DNA from: Clostridiales bacterium
GTDB taxonomy: Bacteria > Bacillota > Clostridia > Christensenellales > UBA1242
DNA: 64,000 nt
Reading direction: 5' to 3'
NCBI GenBank assembly: GCA_015055815.1
Contig: SVHM01000001.1
Coordinates: 105,774-169,773 of the forward strand
Below, piece after piece: positions 44,250-54,252 of the stretch; position 1 is the stretch's first letter; the number at the start of each line of letters is the position of its first letter. The notes beneath the pieces were generated by a model, which was not told the origin of the DNA, did no database searches, and saw only the letters and a program-made list of their open reading frames with translations. The position numbers were made by a program, and so were the translations under genes.

Positions 44250-44465
44250 AAACAAAAAAATCCTTATGATAACATAAGGACGAGATTAACCCGCGGTTCC
44301 ACCTTATTTGGTTTTTATAAAAAAACCCACTTTAAATTATCTATTACGCATAGATAAAGCGATACTCCAAAAGTGGTTTCAATAAATATTATAATGCAAG
44401 GCTCTCAGCCACCCCCGCTCTCTGTAAAAATTGAATATTTATCTACTTGTCTTTTATCTTCGTAT
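44250..44465 (-). promoter_or_regulatory. T-box leader of thrS (Thr, ACC specifier)
   Basis: Minus strand contains AGAGAGCGGGGGTGGCTGAGAGCC (stem I), TGAAACCACTTTTGGAGTATCGC, canonical AAGGTGGAACCGCG, then terminator TCCTTATGTTATCATAAGGATTTTTTT. Confidence 0.92.
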
Positions 44466-44511
44466 TACATAATTAATTTACTATATTTATAACCATTTGT
44501 CAAGTGGTATA

Positions 44512-52160: not shown

Positions 52161-52260
52161 AAATTAACTCCAATTTTTTTATAGTATATCACATAAAAAA
52201 ATATTTGTAACTAAATTCAAAATAATATTTAGCAAATATTACACTAAAATACACATTAAA

Positions 52261-52319
52261 GTTCACTTCAAGTCTGGTATAAGCAAAACAAAAAGACCCT
52301 TGCGGGTCTTATTTGGTGC
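52261..52319. repeat. Direct repeat copy 1: module tail, tRNA-Leu terminator and the last nucleotides of the tRNA-Leu 3' end
   Basis: GTTCACTTCAAGTCTGGTATAAGCAAAACAAAAAGACCCTTGCGGGTCTTATTTGGTGC; repeated at 53283-53342 with one indel. Confidence 0.95.
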
Positions 52320-52387
52320 AACGATTGATAACGAATACGAACCATAAAGTCTTTATCGGATATGGTTATTTTGTTGTTAGAGTGAAA

Positions 52388-52978
52388 TTATAGTTGTCTT
52401 TCTGGTTTATTAATTTTTCTAACAATTTCGTTTAATATAATTTCTGACCAAGACTCGAAATTTGTAATATTGTTCAAACTATCAATATCAACAAATTTAC
52501 ATTTACCGTCTGTGAAAGTAGTATCAAATGATTTTTCAATAAATATTGGAAATATAACTCCTAAATGTTTTGCCGACTTTTCCGAAATCGGAGTGTATGT
52601 TAATATTGGGTTGTTTGTCTCAACATCTTTAACTTCTAATCCTAATTCTTCTAATATTTCTCTTTTCATTCCATTTGTAAAAGTTTGAATGTTAGAATTG
52701 GACATGTCAAAAATATCTAAATGACCACCAACATATAACAAAGTTTTATTTTTCTCGGGAGATGTTTTGCTTGTAGATTTTGAGTTCTTGTTTATTATCA
52801 AAATTTGGTTGCCTTTTGTAATAATTACACCTGCACAAATTGGTTGAACGACATCTATTCTGTCTTCAACAATATCTCTATACCCATATTGAATTTCTAT
52901 ATCTTTTAATCTATCTATTGAATTTAATCCACTTGTAAGATTTAAATTGCCTTTATTAATATAACCAATTTTTTCCAT
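52388..52978 (-). CDS. NUDIX hydrolase-like protein
   Basis: GGHLDIFDMSNSNIQTFTNGMKREILEELGLEV (Nudix box with an insertion). Confidence 0.8.
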   Translation of the reverse strand: MEKIGYINKGNLNLTSGLNSIDRLKDIEIQYGYRDIVEDRIDVVQPICAGVIITKGNQILIINKNSKSTSKTSPEKNKTLLYVGGHLDIFDMSNSNIQTFTNGMKREILEELGLEVKDVETNNPILTYTPISEKSAKHLGVIFPIFIEKSFDTTFTDGKCKFVDIDSLNNITNFESWSEIILNEIVRKINKPERQL

Positions 52979-53163
52979 ACCACAAGTATAACACACTATT
53001 ATTAAAAGTGGTATAGTTTTAACAAAAAAAAGAGAAAATTTTAGATTTCTTCTCTCTTGTGTTTAGTTGTTGCTTGTGTCTTTGTTTTTAGTGTTTAGTA
53101 AAGCGTCAACACTTTTGGCTAATAAAAAACAACCCAAACACTCTGGTTTGGAATAGTTTTCTA

Positions 53164-53336
53164 TGGTGCTGGTGCCCAGACGTGGTGCAGACAATGTAAT
53201 TGTCAAATTAGCGAAGAGCATAGCTCGAGCGTCACAGGTACGATAAGTACCAGTTGATGTATGAAATACATCGTGAACGATAGTTCACTTCAAGTCTGGT
53301 ATTAAGCAAAACAAAAAGACCCTTGCGGGTCTTATT
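53164..53336. repeat. tRNA-Leu-associated hairpin module L1 (173 bp)
   Basis: Starts with a tRNA-Leu 3'-end copy TGGTGCTGGTG; core GGTGCAG-hp-CAAATTAGCGA-hp-GAGCGTCAC; ends just before the genuine tRNA-Leu 3' end at 53337. Confidence 0.88.
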
Positions 53337-53342
53337 TGGTGC
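53283..53342. repeat. Direct repeat copy 2 (partner of 52261-52319)
   Basis: GTTCACTTCAAGTCTGGTATTAAGCAAAACAAAAAGACCCTTGCGGGTCTTATTTGGTGC. Confidence 0.95.
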
Positions 53343-53423
53343 TGGTGACCAGACTTGAACTGGTACGGTTGTTACACCGCAGGATTTTAAGTCCTGTGCG
53401 TCTGCCGATTCCGCCACACCAGC
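53337..53423 (-). tRNA. tRNA-Leu (UAA)
   Basis: GCTGGTGTGGCGGAATCGGCAGACGCACAGGACTTAAAATCCTGCGGTGTAACAACCGTACCAGTTCAAGTCTGGTCACCAGCACCA; encoded CCA, long variable arm. Confidence 0.97.
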
Positions 53424-53426
53424 AAA

Positions 53427-53501
53427 TGGAGGCACCTCTCAGATTCGAACTGAGGCATGAGGGTTTTGCAGACCCGGGCCTTACCACTTGGCTAAGGTGC
53501 C
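53427..53501 (-). tRNA. tRNA-Cys (GCA)
   Basis: GGCACCTTAGCCAAGTGGTAAGGCCCGGGTCTGCAAAACCCTCATGCCTCAGTTCGAATCTGAGAGGTGCCTCCA. Confidence 0.97.
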
Positions 53502-53627
53502 ATGATTTGAACAAAGTAATTATAACACATTAAATTTCTTATGTAAAGTATTTAAATTAAAATTTATCAATATTTTATTTATAATATGAAATAATAAAAA
53601 CAAAGGTTACAAATAAAAATGTTAAAA

Positions 53628-53681
53628 AAATCTAAATCACGTCAATAAGCGAAAAAAAGAAACCCATTAGGTTTCTATTTA
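53628..53681. repeat. Truncated tRNA-Gly module remnant (tail plus terminator)
   Basis: TCACGTCAATAAGCGAAAAAAAGAAACCCATTAGGTTTCTATTTA matches the module tail (..TCTCGTCAATAAGCGAAAAAAAGAAACCCGTTAGGTTTCTATTTA). Confidence 0.8.
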
Positions 53682-53862
53682 TGGAGCGGAAGATCGAGTT
53701 CGGTGCAGTCACGCTAGTGACAAATTAGCGATAGACTAAAGTCTGAGCGTCACTAAGCGACATTCGGAGCGAGTTCCTTTGCGTGTAAGCAAAGCATGTT
53801 CGCTAGAACATGTGAATCTCGTCTATAAGCGAAAAAAAAGAAACCCGTTAGGTTTCTATTTA
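53682..53862. repeat. tRNA-Gly-associated hairpin module G1 (181 bp)
   Basis: Starts TGGAGCGGAAG (tRNA-Gly 3' end copy); core at 53702-53753; T-arm halves GCGAGTTC and GAATCTCGTC separated by hairpins. Confidence 0.92.
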
Positions 53863-54044
53863 TGGAGCGGAAGATCGAGTTCGGTGCAGTCACGTTAGTG
53901 ACAAATTAGCGATAGACTATATAGTCTGAGCGTCACTAAGCGACATTCGGAGCGAGTTCCTTTGCGTGTAAGCAAAGCATGTTCGCTAGAACATGTGAAT
54001 CTCGTCAATAAGCGAAAAAAAGAAACCCGTTAGGTTTCTATTTA
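53863..54044. repeat. tRNA-Gly-associated hairpin module G2 (182 bp), tandem copy of G1
   Basis: Near-identical to G1; hairpin 2 is AGACTATATAGTCT instead of AGACTAAAGTCT. Confidence 0.93.
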
Positions 54045-54119
54045 TGGAGCGGAAGACGAGATTCGAACTCGCGACATTCGCCTTGGCAAGGCGACGCTCT
54101 ACCACTGAGCCACTCCCGC
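54045..54119 (-). tRNA. tRNA-Gly (GCC)
   Basis: GCGGGAGTGGCTCAGTGGTAGAGCGTCGCCTTGCCAAGGCGAATGTCGCGAGTTCGAATCTCGTCTTCCGCTCCA. Confidence 0.97.
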
Positions 54120-54120
54120 A

Positions 54121-54252
54121 TATTTAATTATTTGCGTTCGCCTTGGCAAGTCTCGCTCAACCACGCTTACTGCCGCCACTCCCGCATATTTAATTATTTG
54201 CGTTCGCCTTGGCAAGTCTCGCTCAACCACGCTTACTGCCGCCACTCCCGCA
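54121..54252 (-). repeat. Two 66-bp tandem degenerate copies of the tRNA-Gly 5' half
   Basis: Minus strand unit GGGAGTGGCGGCAGTAAGCGTGGTTGAGCGAGACTTGCCAAGGCGAACGCAAATAATTAAATATGC; CCCGCA starts at 54115, 54181 and 54247 (period 66). Confidence 0.9.

Follow-up and report, generated by a model that had tools for sequence, protein, structure and literature searches.

Modules next to two tRNA genes in the window

Are the short hairpin-rich modules beside tRNA genes of this bacterium structured RNAs, or are they pieces of DNA that have entered the chromosome at those genes? The window, i.e., the whole 64,000-nucleotide stretch of DNA that we analyzed, belongs to the genome of a Clostridiales bacterium (G000; 1.31 Mb, 15 contigs). 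An earlier note on it had described three modules, L1, G1, and G2, with shared linkers and differing hairpins. The spaced motif GGTGCAG-N-CAAATTAGCGA-N-GAGCGTCAC matched the window only at the three cores given in Table 1 and had no match over 100 dinucleotide shuffles, the hairpins that the note had listed were present where it placed them, and ARAGORN, which reported tRNA-Leu(TAA), -Cys, -Gly(GCC), and -Val on the minus strand, agreed with it on the neighboring tRNA-Leu and tRNA-Gly genes. Compared with shuffled sequences, the + strand folded with z values of -6.1 for L1 and -3.1 for G2. An apparent + strand preference by folding energy vanished with dinucleotide-shuffled controls, and thus folding energy gave no strand preference.

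The defining feature of the modules, which was absent from the earlier note, is that both their ends and their arms are specific for the adjacent tRNA. The 3' end of the tRNA gene, from the T-loop to the CCA, opens each unit as its reverse complement (TGGTGCTGGTG-CCCAGAC for Leu and TGGAGCGGAAGA-TCGAGTTC for Gly). In the right part of the Leu and Gly modules, the T-arm of their own tRNA is copied in opposite orientation, and its T-loop takes up the last two hairpins. An A-rich stretch follows, and then the intrinsic-terminator-like hairpin used by the tRNA; the one carried by L1 has an identical copy at 52280-52319. Taken together, the tRNA-end copy, the inverted T-arm copy, and the hairpins indicate that each unit is a folded-back tRNA 3' end whose tip bears a structured core.

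No Rfam family matched the modules at either gathering or relaxed thresholds, in line with the earlier statement that group I and group II introns and the hammerhead are not involved. A group I intron reading of an S-like sequence (AGACTATATAGTC) was ruled out, as this sequence is hairpin 2. Elsewhere in the window, the minus strand carries a T-box leader at 44273-44469 (RF00230, 102 bits).

Table 1. Positions of module features in the window and of 5'-end modules at locus L054 (hp, hairpin)
Feature	Position	Strand	Remarks
Truncated distal L1-type unit	52250-52319	+	hp4 arm, T-arm 3' half, terminator
Putative gene cassette	52311-53163	-	from L1 to the truncated unit
Weakly Nudix-like ORF of the window cassette	52388-52996	-	202 aa; PF00293, E = 0.009, below cut-off
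Unit L1 (F3 core) at tRNA-Leu(TAA)	53164-53336	+	core strand antisense to tRNA
Near-exact reverse-complement copy of tRNA-Leu 3' end	53164-53181	+	TGGTGCTGGTGCCCAGAC
L1 core	53184-53235	+	GGTGCA-hp1 (53190-53204)-AAATTAGCGA-hp2 (53216-53226)-GAGCGTCAC
L1 hairpin, then T-arm mimic	53236-53300	+	GGTAC-GATAA-GTACC, then GTACCAGTT / TTCAAGTCTGGT
hp3 and hp4, interrupting the L1 T-arm mimic	53256-53272, 53273-53288	+	
Intrinsic-terminator-like hairpin	53313-53333	-	tRNA-Leu/L1 boundary; carried by the unit
tRNA-Leu(TAA)	53337-53423	-	host gene of L1; ARAGORN
Truncated distal Gly-type unit	53634-53681	+	A-rich stretch and terminator
Unit G1 (F3 core) at tRNA-Gly(GCC)	53682-53862	+	in tandem with G2
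Gly 3'-end copies opening G1 and G2	53682-53701, 53863-53882		
G1 core	53702-53753	+	hp1 53708-53721, hp2 53733-53744
G1 T-arm mimic	53754-53823	+	GAGCGAGTTC / GAATCTCGTC; hp3 (53777-53794) and hp4 (53795-53812) inserted
Unit G2	53863-54044	+	adjoins tRNA-Gly
G2 core	53883-53936	+	
tRNA-Gly(GCC)	54045-54119	-	host gene of G1 and G2; ARAGORN
F4 5'-end modules at tRNA-Lys(TTT) (tandem) and tRNA-His	L054 2318-2387, 2485-2554, 2851-2920	sense	

Shared cores and target-specific arms

The core type of the window, F3, occurred in only 2 of the 13 genomes of the genus. A fourth copy in G000 lies at tRNA-Ser(TGA), and the congener G011 carries two tandem copies at tRNA-Gln and one, more diverged, at the orthologous tRNA-Leu locus. 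Across these copies the linkers were constant and the stems varied, with GACAAT/ATTGTC, GTCAC/GTGAC, GTAGCC/GGCTAC, or GAAAGTGT/ACACTTTC in hp1 and GAGC/GCTC, AGACT/AGTCT, GAGTGC/GCACTC, GTGAAC/GTTCAC, or GATAG/CTATC in hp2. A GTDB-wide scan with the F3 pattern matched only one congener contig (CALWJZ010000018) and one Actinomycetota MAG; the latter match (L021; 19.9 bits) was within a coding region and was rejected as chance.

In all, four core types recurred at different tRNAs: F3, F1 (TCTATA-stem-TATAT-CTCG-stem-CGAG-TAC), F2 (GCCGAG-hairpin-GCGAACGCC-CTCG..CGAGTAC), and F4 (AAGAAAAGTTGCCGGTGGCAAGTTTTTAGC..GCCGGGAGC). An alignment of 17 F1 sequences from different tRNAs had 85% paired cells and changes on both sides in 12 of its 14 pairs. 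Its covariation score of 0.504, compared with 0.149 for shuffled alignments (0/500 as high), collapsed when the columns were slid by one. Thus, the earlier note was right in proposing a structured family in which the core is conserved and stem changes compensate each other. Neither outcome that would have refuted it was obtained, since no Rfam, phage, or plasmid sequence matched and more covarying copies were found in related genomes. In stem A of F1, one G.U pair is conserved and a G.A/A.G step is present; G.T pairs were few, save for one conserved position in F1. Loops of the GNA/GNNA type were found 40 times on the core strand versus 14 times on its complement, and all scored cores at 3' ends were antisense to the tRNA.

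The arms behaved differently from the cores. For the arm preceding the terminator, its own tRNA 3' end was a better pairing partner than the 3' ends of other tRNAs (38 units; median rank, 0.04; Wilcoxon P = 8e-8). This duplex test was used in place of ungapped own-versus-other matching of the T-arm mimic, which was weak and relied on a tRNA-Met/Ile(CAT) assignment that is ambiguous. The mimic arm itself is imperfect and in some units undetectable. Since cores are common to several tRNAs while arms fit each tRNA, the arms follow the target.

These data bear on whether the units could be passive fold-back (template-switch) copies, made at tRNA palindromes during replication and then duplicated in tandem with no dedicated machinery. 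The units are inverted-repeat-like copies of tRNA ends, and tandem copies with truncated distal units are common, as that process would produce. However, conservation and covariation of the cores extend over a dozen different tRNAs, and one core can be found at tRNAs that are unrelated in sequence as well as at tmRNA and 5' ends. A shared core is not what copying errors would leave behind, and we regard this origin as hardly probable.

Distribution over tRNA and tmRNA genes

The earlier note had attached the modules to two tRNA genes, which is true of the window but too narrow, since many operon-terminal tRNA genes and the tmRNA gene host them. Copy detection, model matches, and inspection combined place 3' modules at about 17 tRNA/tmRNA loci of G000, with F1, F3, F4, and unassigned cores, at least three of which are conserved and unrelated to one another. 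The modules are arranged in tandem, 110 to 260 bp each, just beyond the gene end. A copy of the gene's own 3' end was found within 600 nt downstream at 46 of 126 operon-terminal tRNA genes, a few of which reflect similar neighboring tRNAs rather than modules, compared with 0 in the upstream control and 6 in the antisense control. With a 20-nt probe, own 3'-end copies were found at 44 of 124 genes versus 4.5 expected from the ends of other tRNAs. Apart from the model searches, this census covers the tRNA neighborhoods fetched, not complete genomes, and the genomes are draft assemblies in which tandem arrays have assembly gaps (Ns in L056 and L168). Positive genomes include those of four other genera of the family, whose members are Clostridia with small genomes (G013, G023, G033, and G047).

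An F1 model run over 247 genomes of the class, with strict filters that may lose weak matches, gave 15 matches, all in G000. Fourteen of them lay 3' of a tRNA or tmRNA gene, in antisense orientation to it, and one was an orphan 12 kb from the next tRNA. No F1 was found outside the genus, and F4 occurred in several genera. The tmRNA gene of G000 is among the F1 hosts: at L163 1401-1620, the gene (tag ADNRSELALAA) is accompanied by an F1 module and a degenerate copy of its own 3' end.

Occupancy varied between close relatives. The tRNA-Leu(TAA) locus was empty in the congeners G002, G007, and G012 and was filled by unrelated cores in G000/G011, G005, G003, and G009; G005 and G003 showed the same layout, with unrelated cores in two tandem copies each. 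Further modules at this locus were found in G009, G001, and G004. This pattern suggests mobility, which the earlier note had raised as a possibility. Between tRNA-Val and the tRNA-Leu module of G009, a gene matching PF08010 (phage GP30.3 family, E = 4e-31) is located at L035 17121-17747.

Direct repeats of tRNA and tmRNA 3' ends, as found here, are the classic signature of tyrosine-integrase islands, and the modules might accordingly be remnants of attachment sites left by ordinary tRNA-integrating phages or islands that lost their interior. We consider this improbable: the units are short (110 to 260 bp) and have a conserved multi-hairpin core, no island with these modules as borders was seen, and the core was absent from the sequences searched, as neither a scan of viral contigs for three cores nor blastn against phages and plasmids gave a match.

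Modules at the 5' ends of tRNA genes

The F4 model, although built from 3' modules only, also matched tRNA-sense sequences in G000 with E values of about 5e-10, two in tandem upstream of tRNA-Lys(TTT) and another upstream of tRNA-His (Table 1). In these 5'-end modules the copied part is the tRNA 5' end, from nt 1 to 19, up to the D-loop. The rule common to 3'- and 5'-end modules is partial gene end, core, arm, intact gene. The evidence for 5'-end modules consists of individually inspected cases and the F4 matches; a general count of upstream tRNA 5'-end copies was not above background because neighboring tRNAs resemble each other.

Several individual loci had related arrangements. Upstream of tRNA-Ser(GGA) or tRNA-Ser(TGA) at L049, L001, and L086, another core (GGAGGTAATG..CATTAGCCAATG..TGACGGACTATGGAC) sits between a tRNA-Ser 5'-end copy and the gene. 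At L125 of G013, the F4 core flanks tRNA-Thr(CGT) on both sides (49-117 and 310-378), and the downstream core is followed by a tRNA copy from about nt 20 to the CCA, as if the core sat within the D-loop of a split tRNA copy. In tRNA-Ile 5'-side units at L120 and L146, the copied part reaches the anticodon arm and is followed by an F2-type core, which suggests a third break point. In the window, two tandem 66-bp copies of tRNA-Gly 5'-side fragments (GCGGGAGTGGC... plus a piece of the anticodon arm) lie just upstream of tRNA-Gly at 54109-54252, and G009 has a single similar copy; the window repeats are probably degenerate 5'-end modules.

The main rival to a DNA-level explanation is that the modules are structured RNAs like the RtT RNA of Escherichia coli, produced by read-through of the tRNA operon or from the other strand, with a role in tRNA 3' processing or regulation and with the tRNA copies as processing signals. 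In E. coli, both the annotation and the Rfam model (RF00391) treat units with this layout as RtT RNA on the tRNA-sense strand, and this RNA status of the relative counts against a DNA reading. So do the conserved G.U pair and the G.A/A.G step in the covarying F1 core, which would also suit an RNA; the step resembles the tandem GA motif reported for RtT (PMC7657543), a likeness that is suggestive only. However, a terminator stands between the tRNA and the module, occurrence is patchy with unrelated cores at one locus among congeners, and RF00391 matched no module tested. The core is also antisense to the tRNA in 3'-end modules and sense in 5'-end modules. This makes a single RNA function harder to defend than a DNA function, and the occurrence of one core, F4, in both orientations points to DNA and not to a transcript. 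We therefore judge an RtT-like role unlikely, if less so than the two origins considered above. The loop bias, the scarcity of G.T pairs, and the terminator between tRNA and module weakly favor a folded DNA strand, and overall the modules resemble DNA insertion sites tailored to their genes more than they do ordinary RNAs.

Gene cassettes within the arrays

Some arrays contain genes. The window cassette (Table 1) shares its end near 52313-52370 with a cassette at tRNA-Leu(TAG), the two having a common end of about 60 bp (ACCATATCCGATAAA..CTTTATGGTTCG.ATTCGTTATCAATCGTTGCACCA), and a fragment of a homologue of its Nudix-like protein is present in the tRNA-Leu(TAG) array (62% over 81 aa). Other array genes encode a 111-aa protein (ORF111) at tRNA-Leu(TAG), a GNAT protein at tRNA-Asn, and a GNAT protein and a zinc ribbon protein at tRNA-Ser(TGA). 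The cassette ends form inverted repeats around the tRNA-end repeat and differ from the modules. Judged from these ends, the gene cassettes may be moved by a recombination system other than that of the hairpin units, which would count against the model proposed below.

A proposed recombination model

We favor the explanation, with a probability of roughly 0.45, that the modules are short nonautonomous integrative DNA cassettes dedicated to the ends of tRNA and tmRNA genes, which would recombine via a folded strand. We infer from the features described above that the active form is a folded single strand, that the units spread by recombination, and that a recombinase is the agent. One of the strands (at 3' ends, the one antisense to the tRNA) would fold so that the copied tRNA end and the mimic arm form an outer stem, rebuilding a double-stranded T-arm/acceptor end with bulges and leaving the core hairpins at the tip. 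Once recognized by a site-specific recombinase, the folded strand would undergo recombination with the genuine gene end, for which the integron integrase acting on attC x attI, or XerCD acting on the single-stranded DNA of CTXphi, would be the precedent. Every insertion would bring a fresh gene end and terminator, such that the tRNA stays intact and units stack, sometimes with a gene.

No dedicated recombinase was found among the tyrosine recombinases (PF00589). The units are noncoding and encode no integrase, and at the loci fetched both PF00589 genes of G000 are located away from modules. The sole tyrosine recombinase in nearly all congeners is XerS-like and encoded next to lexA, and it may simply resolve chromosome dimers. 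At L007 1051-2800, its gene is directly followed by lexA in the same orientation and is thus possibly SOS controlled.

Comparison with known systems

The closest known relatives are the E. coli tyrT/tyrV repeats, i.e., RtT RNA (RF00391, rttR). These tandem 178-bp units lie right after the tRNA gene, start with the tRNA-Tyr 3' end (19 bp), and continue with hairpins and an arm complementary to this end; the tyrT-tyrV spacer is itself one such unit, and the repeats occur in 4,726 of 5,426 E. coli genomes at 1 to 9 places each. The clostridial modules likewise form tandem units of about 170 to 180 bp opening with the adjacent tRNA 3' end. However, RtT repeats involve one tRNA species and a different core sequence, and their RNA is described from the tRNA-sense strand; to our knowledge, they have no gene cassettes, tmRNA hosts, or 5'-end modules. 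The RF00391 model, which scored E. coli units at 133 to 138 bits, matched neither the window nor eight module loci, and by this model the tested clostridial units are not members of the RtT family, although the layout is still common to both. A literature search, thin on older work, found no description of such modules. The term "undescribed" in the earlier note therefore applies to the clostridial family as far as our searches reach, but not to the layout.

Integron attC sites resemble the modules in having variable hairpin arms with conserved short linkers, tandem arrays running from anchor to cargo, and a fold-back stem that mimics the target. The modules differ in that they are anchored on a tRNA gene end and most units carry no gene. 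Additionally, both PF00589 proteins of G000 scored 62 to 65 bits with the integron integrase model (TIGR02249), compared with a cut-off of 265, and no attC R''/L''-L'/R' boxes (GTTRRRY) were seen by eye in the module sequences. Elements that target tRNA and tmRNA genes, such as those with tyrosine integrases and tycheposons, likewise use and restore the 3' end as an attachment site, and the direct repeat of the tRNA 3' end on both sides of the insert is found in the modules as well; those elements are kilobases long and have an integrase, whereas the modules are noncoding, about 260 bp at most, and have tRNA-specific fold-back arms. REP/BIME and other bacterial palindromic repeats are also short nonautonomous hairpin elements, but REPs are scattered in intergenic DNA, whereas the modules are confined to tRNA-like gene ends and have target-specific arms.

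A broader proposal, which we put forward only tentatively and consider doubtful in its full extent, is a hitherto unrecognized, tRNA-anchored counterpart of the integron, in which many tRNA-like gene ends of one bacterial family would be anchors for dedicated cassettes, the folded single-strand sites would custom-copy those ends, a few cores would be interchangeable at 3' and 5' ends, and E. coli tyrT/RtT would be a distant member. If the recombination reading is true, bacteria would have another way of stacking small cassettes at fixed anchors, and here the anchor would be an essential gene that the cassette repairs on entry. The E. coli tyrT repeats have stood for decades as an unexplained curiosity of one locus; with about 17 loci in one genome, five genera, and target-specific arms, this curiosity becomes a class with testable rules.
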